Positions 142 through 20,670 of a stretch of DNA of 20,674 nucleotides are shown here, one piece after another. Position 1 is the stretch's first letter, and the number at the start of each line of letters is the position of its first letter. A program made the translations under genes and the position numbers. The stretch is from a virus, in IMG/VR virus record IMGVR_UViG_3300030110_002634, positions 914 through 21,587 of that record, one strand, 5' to 3'. The notes beneath the pieces were generated by a model. It saw only the letters and a program-made list of their open reading frames with translations. It was not told where the DNA came from and made no database searches.

Positions 142-378
142 TTACCTTTTAGGAATATTTAATTTAGGAATTGTTTTTTGGGATTGTTTTTGTTGTTTTT
201 GTATGGCGTCGTTTTCTTCTTTATATTGTTTAGTGAGACGCTTTATGTAGAATTTTCTAAGATATATTGGTAGGTTGTATACGTCCTTAAAAGTAAAGCT
301 TCCTTTACTATGATACATTAGTTGGAATATTTCTTCGTGTAAGTCGGGCTTATTATTGGCTTGAAGGCCAAAAAAACC
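142..378 (-). CDS. Frameshift (+1) extension of the gp26-like gene; putative tail-assembly-chaperone C-terminal part
   Basis: This frame is open for 78 codons, from just after a TAG at 379-381 to a TAA at 142-144. It has no ATG near its beginning: the first is 21 codons in, at 318, without a good ribosome binding site. Its protein reads GFFGLQANNKPDLHEEIFQL, then LMYHSKGSFTFKDVYNLPIY and LRKFYIKRL, then a Lys/Gln-rich tail; it looks like real coding sequence and not noise. It overlaps the end of the gp26-like gene across seven T residues (370-376), where a +1 slip of the second TTT would join the frames. The joined product would be 248 residues of the gp26-like protein plus 75 more, 323 in all. 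Position after sheath and tube matches the frameshifted tail-assembly chaperone genes of many phages. An independent small gene starting at 318, or a homopolymer sequencing error, are the alternatives. Confidence 0.7.
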   Translation of the reverse strand, partial: GFFGLQANNKPDLHEEIFQLMYHSKGSFTFKDVYNLPIYLRKFYIKRLTKQYKEENDAIQKQQKQSQKTIPKLNIPKR

Positions 379-1114
379 CTACCGTCATAGGGACGGTCAC
401 CTCTCTTTCTTCACCATTGGAGAACTTTAATGTTGTTTCCATTTCAACATCAGGCATAAGAGATTGTACGTGGGTTCTGAAATCTAAAGAATCAATTGAT
501 AAAAATTCATTATCAACAAAATTATTAATTGTCATTGTATCGGATTCACCATCAACGGATTTGATAATCTTTTTCAAACGAGTGGTTAACTCATATTGGA
601 TTGAACCATCGGACATTTTTTTACGAGCGTTTACCTCAGACTGAATTTCACTCTCATCCTTTTGATTAAGTAATTTAAACGTTAATATTCTTTTTGAATT
701 TTTTAATTCATATGAGAATTCGTTTATACCCTTTTCCAATTTTTTAAAGTCTATTTTTTTATCTTTGGCAGTTGTTAAATCATAAGTGGATTTTCTTGAA
801 ACACCATCATCATCGGTATATTCAAAAGAATAATCCTTACCATAGGCTAGGATTCTAGCTGCTATAATCAAACCATTTTTATCACCAATCAATAAATCAT
901 CACAATTTATTTTCTTATCAATAATCAATGATTCTAATAGTTTATCCAATACCAAACCGCTCTTCAATAGGTTCGGAGAAGTTAATATGTCCTCCTCACG
1001 CGCAGTCATATATTTCATTTCAACTTTACCAGAAGACAATGGATTACTCTCAGGATAAAAATATCCTTTGGATGGTAAATCCACAACTTCCGTAGGGAAT
1101 TTGTAATCGCTCAT
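353..1114 (-). CDS. 26: T4 gp26-type baseplate/tail assembly protein
   Basis: The 253-residue protein matches the T4 baseplate family (gp26-like) by its N-terminal pattern: LPSKGYFYP near residue 14, NPLSSGKVEMKYMTAREEDIL near 24-44, then a helical stretch (LLKSGLVLDKLLESLI). In T4, gp26 is needed for baseplate hub assembly; in phages generally the gene between tube and tape measure is the tail assembly chaperone, which fits here. It is longer than T4 gp26 (208 residues). It ends GFFWPSSQ over a seven-T run, where a +1 shift would give a 323-residue product. The upstream ribosome binding site is weak (AAAGAT). A promoter-like octamer variant lies 24 bases upstream of the ATG. Confidence 0.85.
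   Translation of the reverse strand: MSDYKFPTEVVDLPSKGYFYPESNPLSSGKVEMKYMTAREEDILTSPNLLKSGLVLDKLLESLIIDKKINCDDLLIGDKNGLIIAARILAYGKDYSFEYTDDDGVSRKSTYDLTTAKDKKIDFKKLEKGINEFSYELKNSKRILTFKLLNQKDESEIQSEVNARKKMSDGSIQYELTTRLKKIIKSVDGESDTMTINNFVDNEFLSIDSLDFRTHVQSLMPDVEMETTLKFSNGEEREVTVPMTVGFFWPSSQ
370..397 (-). promoter_or_regulatory. Putative +1 frameshift signal: hairpins, SD-like AGGG and slippery T7
   Basis: Read on the coding strand, codons GTA GGG TTT TTT TGG end the gp26-like frame. A Shine-Dalgarno-like AGGG (377-380) sits three bases before the TTT at 371-373. This TTT can re-pair one base forward with TTT at 370-372, giving GGC as the next codon. The spacing resembles the RF2 (prfB) +1 frameshift site. 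Just upstream, ACCGTC/GACGGT (392-397 with 381-386) and CCCTA/TAGGG (388-392 with 377-381) form two mutually exclusive hairpins. The second, followed by seven U, also has the shape of a weak intrinsic terminator. A -2 slip would reach the same frame. Confidence 0.55.
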
Positions 1115-1978: not shown

Positions 1979-4429
1979 TTATTCAGGAAACGTAGCGCCT
2001 GTAGGTTGTACTACGAAGTCCAATACTATGAACTCAGCGGTTCTAGTTGGTTGAATAAATATCTGTCCGATAAGACGATTTCTATCAATCTCATCAGGTG
2101 TGTTATTTGATTCATCCATAACAACTCTAAACGCACTCAATCCACTATTTTGTTGAACATCTTCTAAGAATGGATTCACTATAGATAAGAATCTATTTCT
2201 AGTCGCCACAGTATTTTGTTCAAACACTAAGAATCTGGAAGAACTTGCGATAAACTTCTTCAATGCGATTAATAGTCTTCTTACGTTTACCCTATCCAAC
2301 GCTGATGGTCTGGCCTGTAATGTCTTTTGTCCAAACACCACAACTCCCTGACCAGGAAATGTTGCGATTGGATTAACCCTAGCTTCATAGAGTTCGTCTC
2401 TGTTTGCGTGGGTCAATCTGGTCTTAGCTTCCAATGCGTCGGTTAGACCACCTCTGTTTAGTCCAGCGGGTGCAAACCATTCAAATGCTACTTGGTCGTT
2501 AAACGCTATAACACCAGGCAACATTACTGATGGTGGTACGAACACAGGCTTTGCTGTATTTCTATCCTGTATCTTTACCCACGGATAGTAAGTAGCCACA
2601 TAATTTGAATCTAATGTTTTTACCGTATTTGTGACCTGCGCTATCGTATCATTAGCGGATGAAGCGTCCATCACAAATAAAGCATCTGACCTATCCTCAA
2701 TCTTATCAATTGCGTGATTTGTAGTTGTTGAGTGTAATCTGTGATTAACACCAGGTATTGCTAATAAGTTGATATCATACTCCTCAGGATTAGATATACT
2801 ATTGATTGCTCTTTTGTAAGCTACCGAACCACTTGATGCGGAATTGGTGTGGTCAAATCCCTGTTGGTTTGCAGTTGTAATTCCTGCACCTGTTGACTTA
2901 GGATTAGCTGGATTATCACCATCAAAACCAAATTGGAATGGTATAGTAAACTTTCTTTGACCAATCGCTGAATTTGTTAATGAAATCAAAGTTGTTTGAT
3001 TAGCAAAAGTATCAGACAATACAGAAGCCCCATCGGAACCAAACATATTTTCTAAACTCATTGATACGTTTGAACCAACCGTAGCGGTTGCTGGTACTGG
3101 TGCGAGATATTGTTGATTATCTGTATCTGAGAAATTATATCCATAGAAAACATTTTGGTCAAAATCAGCCACAGAACTACTTTGATTTGTTTTGAAAGAT
3201 GCAGTAGGTACGTTAGTTGCACCTGGTATTGTATTGTTTACTGCTCCAAATCCCATAGGTACTAATGTCTTTGGGAAATCAGTTGAACCAGAGAAGTCAC
3301 CAACTCTAATATGTTTACTACTATTTGGATAATCTCCATTAAATGATAACACACCAGATGAATCAATCTCTACAAAACTATCACCAATCACTCTTACGAA
3401 ATAATTTGGATTGTCAGGATCCATTGATAAACCATCAAATTGTTCCATTATGTCATCATTGTTAGGTCTTGTTTTATCAGAATTACCAATATTGACTGAC
3501 CTCACCTGTAATGAGAATGTTCCGTAATCTGAACCAGCCACAGAAGCAGCATCTTTAATATTTAGAACATTAACTTTAAATTGTGAATTAACGTCTGTTC
3601 CGTGTGAACGGGTATAGACTCTGAATAGATTAAATCTCTCACCACTAACTGCTTGTGATGTGACGAATGGAGTTCTAGCATATTGATATCTACTATTTCC
3701 AGTCCAATTACCTGCACCACCATCATTGTTGTATTCTGTAGTTCCAGATGCTAAATCTAAACCTTGTGTTGTTACTTTCAAAGAAGCTGAAGCTGCTGAG
3801 TTTTGACTACCATCAGTTTGAGTTCTTTTAAAGTTTTTATATAAATAGACAGGCATTAATGCTGTACCTGATTTTTCTGTTGTGGCAGAAAAACTAAATA
3901 TATTTTCAATGTAGTTAGCTGAAGATGAATCAAAACTAACAATCTTTTCTATACTAGCAGCACTACTTGTGATTCTTAACTTTGAACCTGAGAGTTGTGC
4001 GTAAGCTTCACCAGCTCCACCCGCCTCTTCAGATAGTCCAAGTATTGAAGCCGCTGTTATAGTAGCGGTTCCATCTGTACCACCTCTTGATGGTGCTAAG
4101 ACTGCCACCGATTGACTGGTAGCGCCTGTTGATAAAAATAATTCAATTGTATCTGCTTTGTAACCCCCAATACCAAGAACTCTAACCACAGTCACGCTAG
4201 GTGCGCTTCTGATATATTGTTCTACAGTATATGGTGTATAAAATCTTTCATCGGTACTACCAAAAACATCTTCAAATTGTGAAAAGCTTGTGATGATTGT
4301 TGGTGTAAAAGCTGGGCCTTTTTTAGTTGGGCCAATGACTGCAGCTCCGATTTCCTGAATTCCTTGCGGAAGGAAAGATACGTCTCTTTCTCTCGTAAAG
4401 ACGCCAGGACTAACTATTCTCTCTGCCAT
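1979..4429 (-). CDS. 18: Tail sheath protein, T4 gp18 type
   Basis: This is the contractile outer sheath of the tail. The 816-residue protein begins MAERIVSPGVFTRERDVSFL and continues with GAAVIGPTKKGPAF and VVRVLGIGGY, the conserved N-terminal region. The last 110 residues hold the conserved C-terminal sheath domain (RVNVRRLLIALKKFI, FEQNTVATRNRF, GQIFIQPTRTAEFIVLDFVV). It is longer than T4 gp18 (659). The extra length seems to lie in a Ser/Thr/Gly/Asn-rich middle part (about residues 120-560), likely surface-exposed domains. GGAG lies seven bases before the ATG. The gene ends in its own terminator, and promoter-like AT motifs occupy the gap upstream. Confidence 0.96.
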   Translation of the reverse strand: MAERIVSPGVFTRERDVSFLPQGIQEIGAAVIGPTKKGPAFTPTIITSFSQFEDVFGSTDERFYTPYTVEQYIRSAPSVTVVRVLGIGGYKADTIELFLSTGATSQSVAVLAPSRGGTDGTATITAASILGLSEEAGGAGEAYAQLSGSKLRITSSAASIEKIVSFDSSSANYIENIFSFSATTEKSGTALMPVYLYKNFKRTQTDGSQNSAASASLKVTTQGLDLASGTTEYNNDGGAGNWTGNSRYQYARTPFVTSQAVSGERFNLFRVYTRSHGTDVNSQFKVNVLNIKDAASVAGSDYGTFSLQVRSVNIGNSDKTRPNNDDIMEQFDGLSMDPDNPNYFVRVIGDSFVEIDSSGVLSFNGDYPNSSKHIRVGDFSGSTDFPKTLVPMGFGAVNNTIPGATNVPTASFKTNQSSSVADFDQNVFYGYNFSDTDNQQYLAPVPATATVGSNVSMSLENMFGSDGASVLSDTFANQTTLISLTNSAIGQRKFTIPFQFGFDGDNPANPKSTGAGITTANQQGFDHTNSASSGSVAYKRAINSISNPEEYDINLLAIPGVNHRLHSTTTNHAIDKIEDRSDALFVMDASSANDTIAQVTNTVKTLDSNYVATYYPWVKIQDRNTAKPVFVPPSVMLPGVIAFNDQVAFEWFAPAGLNRGGLTDALEAKTRLTHANRDELYEARVNPIATFPGQGVVVFGQKTLQARPSALDRVNVRRLLIALKKFIASSSRFLVFEQNTVATRNRFLSIVNPFLEDVQQNSGLSAFRVVMDESNNTPDEIDRNRLIGQIFIQPTRTAEFIVLDFVVQPTGATFPE

Positions 4430-17265: not shown

Positions 17266-20200
17266 TTAAAAAGTTGTTAAACCTATTATTTGGTTTATTG
17301 GAGCAAAAGCGCCGGTAAATTTATAAGTTTTACCTTTGTATTTAAAAACCAATCCTTCCGCTGGAACTATTGATTTAAAACCACCAATCGCGTTTAGTTT
17401 GCTTAGTTGTTGTTTTAGAGTATTTAATTTTTTCAAATCCTTACCTTTTCTTACAACATTTATCGCTTTAACAACATCCTTTCTGATTGTTTGAACTGCT
17501 TTATCTGGATTAGCCGCTAAAAAATTACTTATATTTTTTAATATTTCGGCACCCAACTCAAAAAATAAAATTTCAAATGGTTTCATATTCTCTTTTACCA
17601 TTTTGGTGTGGTCTTGTTTATCCGTAGATAAAAACCAATCTAAAAACTTTTGATTATCAATATCTGCTCTGATTTTTTGAACGCTATATGATTTGTCAAA
17701 GAATGCCCATCTCTTTGTTAAGTTCATTAAAACCTTATTTGGTATTGCGTATTTATATTGTTTTGCTGCGTTGAATATGAATTCCATCCAATAACTTTGA
17801 TGATACTCATTTAGAGTATCGGTATCTTTTAATCCAAATTGACTTTTAAGTTTATCAATTCTATTGAAATAAATATCACGTTTTTTTCCAAAGTTTTGAC
17901 TTTTTTTCAATGTTAAAAAATTTGGTTTTTGAACCTTAAACTTTTTTCCAATGTTCGCATTTATTTGGGTTATCATACCAGCCAATATTCTACCACCATC
18001 ACGTACCTGACCTTTTGGATTCCCATTTTCATCATATTTTGTAGCGCCATGAAATTGTAATAACCTTTTATCATAATCTATTATGTTTTTGGTAGGGGGA
18101 TAAATAATTTCTAAATTTACAAAATTACCACCTTCATCAAATATTTTTTTCTTTTGTGCGTCTGATAATTTACCAACCATCTTTTTTAAATCTTGCATAG
18201 CAAAAACAAAAGCATCCTTTATATCTCCTCTGCCTTGAAACTTTCTAGCAACAGCAACAACATCCATAGCTTTTTTACCCTTATCTTTTATTTGACCTTT
18301 ATTCCTAGCTGCTAACAATTTATCTTTTTTAAAGGTTATCATAAGATTTTGTCCGTCTGTTTTTTCTGTAGGTGTTTCCTCTAAATCTAATCTTCCTTGC
18401 AGGCCTAAATCAACTATTTTCTTTAAATCACCAAACGTTAAATCCTTATCATCAAAGGGATGATTCATATGACCATAGGCACCACCCTCCAACAATATAT
18501 TTTCCTTCACCACATTACCATCATCATCTATTTTTGGTTCTTTAATTTGACCATCATAATCTATAACTTTGACAGGAATTTGATTACCAAAAGCTGTTTG
18601 TGCCATTAGTCTGGTATTTCCAGCTAATAAAAACATATTTCCTTCTTTATCTTTTACTGATATTGGAGCCTCTTGAGCCTCACCACTTTTAATATTTTGT
18701 GTAATGTAATCCCAACTTTTATCATACTCTATAGCTTTTTGTTTAGCGTAGGCTATAGGATTATCAGATTTAGCTACATCAGCTGCATCTGTATTCATCA
18801 TATTTTTCAAATCATTATCTGACAAGCTCCTCTCAGGTGCATCTAATATTTTTTGTTTTAAATCATCTTTATTTTTAGCTAAATCTGGCATAGCTGCAAA
18901 AGCAAAGTCATTCTCAAAGTATTCACCTGTTTCCTCTTCAGCTTGTTCGTCTGAGTAAGGTTTGGTTTTGACTTCAACGCCGGCTGAACGTTCTTTTTTA
19001 CCTGAGGGATTTTGAGGCTCTAAATTTTTTTTACTATTTGGATGTTTATCTAAATAAGATTGCTGCGCTGCGGTTGACTTATCGGTAAAATAGTCCTCAA
19101 CTATTAAACTAACCTCATTTTTCAAATTAATTCTTTCTTTTAATTTTAATTTATCTGTGGTTGTATTACCAACATTATCTAGTCCAACTCCTGGTAAAAC
19201 AGGTGTCTCAACCTCAACACCAGTATAAGATTTACCATCAGGTGTGATACCCATCCACTTCAATAATGTGAACCCTAAGTTTTTTAAAACAGTTCCCTCT
19301 ATGTAATTTTTATAGGATTGTATTGGATTGTTAACTCCAAACCTAGTACCATATTCACCAGATTGTTTTCTACCATAAGCTACGGCTGGTACAACATTAT
19401 ATTCTAATGTGTAATCATAATCTGGATTTAAAGCGCCCTTACCTAAAATATAATTAAGTATTTTCCAACCAGCACCAGCATACATATCATCAATCCAGTT
19501 TGTAACATTTTTCTTATAATCATTAAATCCTCTATAAAAGGTCGGAGGCCCATCATCGGTAGGAGAGCCGCCTGTTGTGCTTTCTTTGATTATTTTATTT
19601 ACATCAATTTCAGTTAAAAACTCATCTATGATTTCATTGGTTAATTTAAATTGTTCGAACAATTTTTTAAACTTATTGGTCATCATATTATAGATACCCT
19701 TATCAAAGTATCCAAAAGCTTTTTTGAACAATTTTTCTCTATCTTTTTCCATATCAGGTGAACCCAACAATTGTCTCATAGTAGTTCCACTAACTTCCTT
19801 ACCAGCTATGTTTATTGAGACGTGAGGTGCTGTGAGAACATATCCGTTATCTTCAAATCCATTGAGATTATCTTTACTTTTTTTATAGTCTTGAAAATAC
19901 TTTCCACCTTTTAATCTACCAGCATCTTTTGCACCAAATATGTAGACAACCGCTGTGGTTTGTGGGTCATATTTTGATAAAACATTTTTTGCCACATAAG
20001 GTGATTTTTCTTGCACTATACGATTTTTTGGAACACCCATCTTTGTCATATGACGAACTTTTTCTTTAAAGTTCATTGGATGGCGTGGTGGTTGTTTTAT
20101 ATTTGATGTTGTGATGTAAGCGTCATCAACTTTTTTCTTTAGCCACTCATAAGTTTTTTTATGATGGGGGCCGAATGGTTGAAATCTACCACCATAAACA

Positions 20201-20670
20201 CCAACAATCTTTTTGATTTCTTTTTGTTCTTTTATCTTTTCATAACCACTACCGTATGGAACGGATGTGTTTTCTTTTTTTTTCTTTTTTTTCTTAGTGG
20301 TATCAGGATTGTAATACCTATGTTCACCATCTTTTTGAATAGCGGGTACCTGTGCTACGGGTCTTAAAAGATTTGGATAATTCATCATTTCTTTTACTTT
20401 TTGTATAACTTCTTTTTTTAACAATTTTTGTTTCTTAACCCAATTCTGACCACGATAATTTTTTATGGGTTTTTTTATAAATTTACCAACCCCCTTTTTA
20501 ACTAACATTTTAAATTTTTTCTCAGCTGCTTTTTCCGCCAATGTTTGAGAATTATCTACTAATAAAAAATTAGATGAACCAAACAAACCTTGAAAAGCTC
20601 CTTTGTTAGCCTGAACATCATTCCAAGATTTCTCAACTAACTCAGGACTTAATTTCCTAGCTCTTGCCAT
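17266..20670 (-). CDS. Giant fusion: NMNAT-like nucleotidyltransferase, ParB-like segment and RNA/DNA-ligase-like domain (1134 aa)
   Basis: Residues 1-150 are basic, with a Lys7 run. Residues 153-335 form a cytidylyltransferase/NMNAT-like domain: GGRFQPFGPHH (160-170, the (H/T)xGH-type site) and VSGTTMR (293-299, like ISSTxxR). Residues about 365-470 form an unknown module after IIKEST. Residues 665-705 resemble a ParB/sulfiredoxin-type strand-helix (LLAGNTRLMAQTAFG). After NILLEGGAYG (724-733) comes a covalent nucleotidyltransferase domain: motif I EKTDGQN with Lys770, LEIIYP (853-858), EGLVFKYKG (1105-1113) and YKFTG (1116-1120), as in RNA and DNA ligases. LLE before Gly729 and ESTTGG after IIKE fit gp21-type cut sites, so processing is possible. 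The ATG is five bases from the window edge, so its ribosome binding site is barely visible and an earlier start cannot be excluded. Confidence 0.85.
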   Translation of the reverse strand: MARARKLSPELVEKSWNDVQANKGAFQGLFGSSNFLLVDNSQTLAEKAAEKKFKMLVKKGVGKFIKKPIKNYRGQNWVKKQKLLKKEVIQKVKEMMNYPNLLRPVAQVPAIQKDGEHRYYNPDTTKKKKKKKENTSVPYGSGYEKIKEQKEIKKIVGVYGGRFQPFGPHHKKTYEWLKKKVDDAYITTSNIKQPPRHPMNFKEKVRHMTKMGVPKNRIVQEKSPYVAKNVLSKYDPQTTAVVYIFGAKDAGRLKGGKYFQDYKKSKDNLNGFEDNGYVLTAPHVSINIAGKEVSGTTMRQLLGSPDMEKDREKLFKKAFGYFDKGIYNMMTNKFKKLFEQFKLTNEIIDEFLTEIDVNKIIKESTTGGSPTDDGPPTFYRGFNDYKKNVTNWIDDMYAGAGWKILNYILGKGALNPDYDYTLEYNVVPAVAYGRKQSGEYGTRFGVNNPIQSYKNYIEGTVLKNLGFTLLKWMGITPDGKSYTGVEVETPVLPGVGLDNVGNTTTDKLKLKERINLKNEVSLIVEDYFTDKSTAAQQSYLDKHPNSKKNLEPQNPSGKKERSAGVEVKTKPYSDEQAEEETGEYFENDFAFAAMPDLAKNKDDLKQKILDAPERSLSDNDLKNMMNTDAADVAKSDNPIAYAKQKAIEYDKSWDYITQNIKSGEAQEAPISVKDKEGNMFLLAGNTRLMAQTAFGNQIPVKVIDYDGQIKEPKIDDDGNVVKENILLEGGAYGHMNHPFDDKDLTFGDLKKIVDLGLQGRLDLEETPTEKTDGQNLMITFKKDKLLAARNKGQIKDKGKKAMDVVAVARKFQGRGDIKDAFVFAMQDLKKMVGKLSDAQKKKIFDEGGNFVNLEIIYPPTKNIIDYDKRLLQFHGATKYDENGNPKGQVRDGGRILAGMITQINANIGKKFKVQKPNFLTLKKSQNFGKKRDIYFNRIDKLKSQFGLKDTDTLNEYHQSYWMEFIFNAAKQYKYAIPNKVLMNLTKRWAFFDKSYSVQKIRADIDNQKFLDWFLSTDKQDHTKMVKENMKPFEILFFELGAEILKNISNFLAANPDKAVQTIRKDVVKAINVVRKGKDLKKLNTLKQQLSKLNAIGGFKSIVPAEGLVFKYKGKTYKFTGAFAPINQIIGLTTF

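Follow-up and report, generated by a model that had tools for sequence, protein, structure and literature searches.

A gp26-like gene on the minus strand of a DNA fragment from a T4-like phage ends at a run of seven Ts, where a second open frame, lacking a suitable start codon, continues one base ahead. This arrangement raises the question of how the second frame is expressed. Here we analyse the 20,674-nucleotide (nt) stretch containing the gene (hereafter referred to as the window), which is part of a 21.6-kb IMG/VR record, together with its relatives. The comparison makes it very likely that programmed +1 ribosomal frameshifting, stimulated by an RNA hairpin refolding behind the ribosome, yields a short (TAC-N) and a long (TAC-NC) tail-assembly chaperone. 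This conclusion is based on sequence-level evidence, namely the conserved fused frames, the coding character of the extension, the covariation of the hairpin, and base and codon biases. The features of the locus are as follows.

353–1114, minus strand: gp26-like 0-frame gene (TAC-N), 253 amino acids, C-terminal GFFWPSSQ (from translation)
142–375, minus strand: +1-frame extension (putative TAC-C domain), FFGLQANN...NIPKR, 77 amino acids, without its own start codon (from conservation and pN/pS)
370–376, minus strand: predicted slip site TTTTTTT (from the pattern of P-site YTT then Y)
377–379, minus strand: E-site codon GGG (from codon bias among relatives)
381–397, minus strand: predicted RNA hairpin ACCGUC-CCUAU-GACGGU, 6 base pairs, 3′ arm ending 4 nt 5′ of the slip site (from a shuffle test and compensatory changes)
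400–404, minus strand: Shine–Dalgarno (SD)-like AGAGG, 2 nt upstream of the hairpin (from motif enrichment)

Reading frames and conservation of the extension

The 0 frame ends with GGG TTT TTT TGG CCT TCA AGC CAA TAA, and the translation near this end is V T V P M T V G F F W P S S Q stop. The +1 frame reads GGT TTT TTT GGC CTT after a TAG codon (381–379), which bounds it one codon before the slip, and stops at 144–142. The sequence confirms the statement in a preliminary description of this DNA that the second frame opens at this TAG without a suitable start: no ATG, GTG or TTG occurs near its beginning in the window, and its first ATG sits within the domain, so that a start there would cost the first 19 residues. 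When reading resumes one base past the GGG codon, the computed fusion has 323 residues, the approximate length that had been given for a product spanning both frames. The 5′ neighbours of the gene encode the tail tube (1334–1819) and sheath (1979–4429), and in the isolates immuto, SP-15 and LIS04 the chaperone gene lies between the tube and the annotated tape measure gene, in agreement with the earlier placement of the gene at the classical chaperone position. Just outside the window, between a small open reading frame and the putative tape measure gene, the source record contains a run of Ns (L082 905–914). Elsewhere in the window, the minus strand at 17266–20670 encodes a 1,134-residue protein that matches no PHROG family and carries near its N terminus a GRFQPFGPHHKK motif, nucleotidyltransferase-like in appearance.

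One scan provided 80 relatives (54–96% identity), and two scans with proteins of the phages immuto (Flavobacterium) and Mel-JY01 (Microcystis) provided a further 160. The site-bearing loci number 241, of which 178 are non-redundant and fall into clades A (64, including the window), B (51) and C (63); they comprise metagenomic contigs, whose sequences are related to one another, and include isolate genomes.

The extension lies in the +1 frame in every non-redundant relative with sufficient downstream sequence, and the few apparently short extensions are those that reach contig ends. Over 893 pairs, its pN/pS is 0.18 in its own frame, the other two frames giving 1.32 and 1.95, and F, F, L, P and R residues are invariant. 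Judged by this pattern of substitution, the +1 extension is a real protein-coding sequence that evolves as a protein. The earlier proposal of a programmed +1 frameshift is supported. Of the 64 clade A sequences, 52 lack any ATG, GTG or TTG from which the extension could be initiated; in clade C, a +1-frame ATG lies 9 nt 5′ of the slip in 12 of 63 sequences. At −33 to −22, some clade C loci, such as L189, carry AGGAGAGAGATG, in which an SD-like motif precedes an in-frame ATG. Initiation at this ATG, 24 nt 5′ of the slip, could give a very short peptide or a short product consisting of the extension alone.

Signals around the predicted slip site

The commonest slip site among the 178 non-redundant relatives is TTTTTTTGGCCT, and the variants are TTTCTTT (27), TTTCTAT (3), TTTTTAT (1) and CTTTTTT (3), the T run being broken in 34 of the 178. 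Relatives with a broken run, among them the isolate phage immuto, retain the extension in the same frame, and none of the relatives has the run lengthened to eight Ts. The A-site codon is TTT, CTT, CTA or TTA, with no obviously slow codon to account for a pause, and the codon after the site is sometimes TAC in place of TGG. Every variant consists of YTT followed by Y, which points to P-site re-pairing at the first codon; in the window, the slip would most likely occur at the first TTT (376–374), with re-pairing on 375–373.

Among the positions upstream of the slip, the E-site codon shows the strongest bias, at 3.19, 2.78 and 2.38 bits per sequence in clades A, B and C, respectively. It is CGA, CAG, GGG, ACG, AGC or one of several others among the relatives, and within clade A every Arg codon at this position is CGA, every Gln codon CAG and every Gly codon GGG. 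This codon has been altered about 53 times on the tree, yet it never ends in T. Thus, a T directly precedes the slip in none of the 178 sequences, although codon usage would predict 69.

The preliminary description had likened the site to that of RF2, on the strength of an AGGG three bases before the slip TTT. This spacing holds with respect to the second TTT, but not the first, where AGGG abuts the T run. Moreover, AGGG occurs only in the closest relatives, and because the codon before the slip varies as described above, AGGG can be discounted as the stimulator and the RF2-like SD geometry falls away. The alignment of relatives thus bore out the frame of the extension and, for the most part, the T run, but not the AGGG. 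A different SD-like motif (GGAG, GAGG or AGGA) lies at −36 to −22, immediately 5′ of the hairpin, in 100% of clade A, 82% of clade B and about 70–78% of clade C, compared with a gene-wide median of 3–6% and synonymous expectations of 0.14–0.57. With the hairpin folded, the spacing from this motif to the slip has no single value among the relatives (modes of 3–5 and 8–10 nt in clade A and 10 nt in clade B), and its role as an anchor is therefore speculative.

The 36 nt before the slip were folded and compared with synonymous shuffles. The mean z was −2.47 in clade A (83% of sequences at p ≤ 0.05), −0.94 in clade B and −1.09 in clade C, and the 15 control windows gave values close to 0. Of the 64 clade A sequences, 63 have a stem whose 3′ arm stops 1–6 nt short of the slip; under looser limits (0–8 nt), stems are present in 42 of 51 clade B and 36 of 63 clade C sequences, the remaining 27 in clade C having no clear stem. 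Covariation was assessed in the 43 clade A sequences that share the main register, a set chosen partly by register, which favours structure: here 90.6% of cells pair, as against 72.6 ± 1.7 in shuffles, both partners have changed in five of seven pairs, and the compensatory cells number 63 (0 of 500 shuffles). Two of the pairs changed eight times each on the tree and are still paired in 43 and 42 of the 43 sequences. The other 21 clade A sequences have the stem in shifted registers, and covariation in clade B gives weaker support for a stem. As the hairpin is strong in clade A only, it is not universal. Downstream, no signal for a stimulatory structure adjoins the slip (z about 0), and a search of Rfam gave no match. 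Within the extension of clade A, RNA structure is in modest excess between +46 and +106, counted from the slip (z −1.5, with 41% at p ≤ 0.05).

Proposed mechanism and alternatives

We propose that most ribosomes would terminate after FFWPSSQ, producing the short, gp26-like form (TAC-N), whereas a fraction with YTT in the P site would slip one base forward, re-pair on TTY and enter the +1 frame. Reading in this frame would append a helical C-terminal domain (TAC-C), producing the long form. The forward push would most likely come from the small hairpin refolding just behind the E site, with its 3′ arm 1–6 nt before the slip, and would be helped by weak codon pairing in the E site and perhaps by the SD-like motif 5′ of the hairpin. 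Without a T ahead of the run there is no −1 slippery heptamer, and the direction would thereby be fixed. We infer from the patterns described above that the shift is ribosomal, takes place at the first YTT and is stimulated by the hairpin, and that the products function as chaperones; the position of the hairpin fits the upstream-hairpin model, from which its function is suggested by analogy.

The frameshift may be real and the hairpin otherwise employed, for example as an intrinsic-terminator-like attenuator lowering the expression of downstream tail genes. We consider this improbable: a hairpin followed by T7 is terminator-like, but a spacer of 1–6 nt separates the two, clade B stems persist despite a broken T run, and the downstream genes are essential tail genes. 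Slightly less probable still is transcriptional slippage, in which the hairpin upstream of T7 would make RNA polymerase drop one U and the U6 mRNA would encode the fusion; the Roseiflexus IS630 element is a precedent. Loss of one U yields the +1 frame, and a nascent-RNA hairpin beside a homopolymer is a known context for deletion slippage (PMC5009743). However, the 34 relatives with a broken run keep the frame of the extension, the run is never T8, and the selection on the E-site codon is a ribosome-level signal.

Ribosomal −2 frameshifting would enter the same frame with one residue more, and the frame alone does not separate it from a +1 shift; T7 would also allow a P-site TTT to re-pair 2 nt back, but such re-pairing would be poor at the TTTCTTT, TTTCTAT or CTTTTTT of relatives, making this reading very improbable. 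The least credible reading is that the extension forms a distinct gene with an independent start, or that a sequencing error has broken a single gene into two frames: the annotation of Mel-JY01 includes a separate small coding sequence, and an ATG precedes the slip in part of clade C, but most of clade A lacks a start codon, the TAG of the window stands one codon before the slip, and the T count is identical in dozens of independent contigs. Sequencing error was rejected, as the count is constant in independent contigs and isolate genomes. The preliminary description had named a separately started homologue and a differing number of Ts as the observations that would overturn its proposal; the relatives have no conserved own start for the extension, and the number of Ts is constant in dozens of independent contigs.

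Protein family, shift direction and known systems

The 0-frame proteins of the related loci L083–L085 and L248–L253 match PHROG_150 (baseplate hub) at 8e-9 to 1e-31, and this family is also matched by T4 gp26 (7e-71) and gp51 (3e-84), which upholds the gp26-like identity at the level of the family. The window 0-frame protein alone does not match PHROG_150 at the 1e-3 level but is 48–52% identical to its counterparts in L083 and L084. The 0-frame protein and the extension were modelled separately rather than as the fusion. The AF2 model of the 0-frame protein (pLDDT 93) is similar to T4-like hub proteins, and its top match among solved structures is a weak one to the HK97 tail assembly chaperone (2ob9, Z 4.7 over 97 residues), the next having Z 2.3. 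The extension is predicted to be a small helical domain (pLDDT 85), weakly similar to the Moogle tape measure chaperone. A sequence search of solved structures gave nothing relevant.

When the +1 extension was compared directly, by profile, with the C terminus of T4 gp51 alone, the match was not significant. The −1 extensions of the group comprising S-RIM8, phiM9, Aeromonas 65.2, OLIVR6 and Cygsa01 match PHROG_634 (the gp51 family), and the +1 extension aligns to them with 87% probability. By way of these intermediate −1 phages, the extension would correspond to the C terminus of T4 gp51.

Among distant annotated phages, the +1 arrangement is found in GXN1, LIS04, SP-15 and LR756508, and the −1 arrangement in Atu_ph07, PA5oct, RAS14 and LR756511, as well as in cyanophage S-RIM8, phiM9, Aeromonas 65.2, OLIVR6 and Cygsa01. 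T TTT TTN (N = C, T or G) stands at the junction in eight of the nine −1 cases, Cygsa01 being the exception. As most −1 relatives have this motif at the same place, the base before the run tracks the direction. LR756511 (L086 4690–4771) has a homologous extension in −1 with the junction GGT TTT TTC, and LR756508 (L085) has one in +1 with the junction AAC TTT CTA. Tentatively, and with somewhat less than even confidence, we suggest that a large group of T4-like phages shares a composite forward motor, composed of an SD-like anchor, a hairpin closing between the anchor and the E site, a weak E-site codon and YTT-Y. In the wider family, whether the shift is +1 or −1 would depend largely on the one base that precedes the shared T run, and evolution would hence have switched the direction while keeping the fused product.

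In the records of S-RIM8, OLIVR6, phiM9, SP-15, immuto and LIS04, the second half of the chaperone appears as a separate tiny gene or a gap (in the corresponding loci, L254 2181–2369, L257 2181–2360, L255 2154–2333, L251 2184–2383, L084 4726–4949 and L249 2208–2439). The small ‘baseplate hub assembly catalyst’ genes or gaps beside gp26 in many phage records, among them S-RIM8, OLIVR6, Mel-JY01, SP-15, LIS04 and immuto, probably correspond to the other half of a chaperone made by frameshifting.

The locus resembles lambda gpG/gpGT and other frameshifted chaperones in its predicted short and long forms from one gene, its extension in another frame and its location between the tube and tape measure genes. 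Most frameshifted tail assembly chaperones use a −1 shift on XXXYYYZ, whereas the window would use a +1 shift on YTT-Y with an upstream hairpin. T4 gp26/gp51 and the T4-like chaperones belong to the same protein family as the window protein (PHROG_150). T4 has two separate chaperone genes, which we take to be 26 and 51, consistent with the PHROG_150 matches, and S-RIM8, phiM9, OLIVR6 and Aeromonas 65.2 apparently shift −1 at T TTT TTN, in contrast to the +1 shift of the window. The chaperone of the haloarchaeal myovirus HSTV-2 has been described as ‘very likely +1’ (PMC5009743). In the portions of the literature considered here, Vladimirov et al. (2022) are cited for such chaperones in T4-like phages: some phages, T4 itself included, encode them as two distinct genes, and others have poly-T −1 sites (PMC10885494, PMC12846349). 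The earlier remark that T4-like phages are not usually annotated with a frameshift is thus partly out of date. Relative to the same portions, neither chaperones of the T4 gp26/gp51 type nor −1 shifts in T4-like phages are new to the literature; a +1 variant whose hairpin lies upstream of the slip appears to be.

The proposed mechanism shares with RF2 (prfB) the P-site re-pairing of YUU on UUU, a duplex behind the E site and an E-site effect. RF2 differs in having a stop codon in the A site and an SD duplex 3 nt behind the slip codon (PMC5009743), whereas the duplex in the window is an mRNA hairpin. By analogy, this hairpin may act like the SD duplex of RF2. To our knowledge, 5′ hairpins driving +1 frameshifting were previously known from engineered constructs. 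Such constructs, with the hairpin placed upstream, promote +1 shifts in yeast and in 70S systems (PMC3639245, PMC6321510), and Huang et al. found that an upstream hairpin beside the E site mimics the RF2 SD duplex and stimulates +1 shifting in a 70S system (PMC6321510). If the proposed mechanism is true, the locus would represent a natural, evolutionarily replicated 5′ hairpin-driven +1 frameshift, with over a hundred natural variants to test, and, together with the −1 relatives at the same junction, would make the determinant of frameshift direction testable within one gene family. As in the engineered refolding hairpins, a 5′ hairpin behind the ribosome would favour forward movement, but the site in the window is natural and conserved. 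The 5′ stem loop of T4 gene 60 likewise favours forward movement, in that case the bypassing of a 50-nt gap (PMC5009743).
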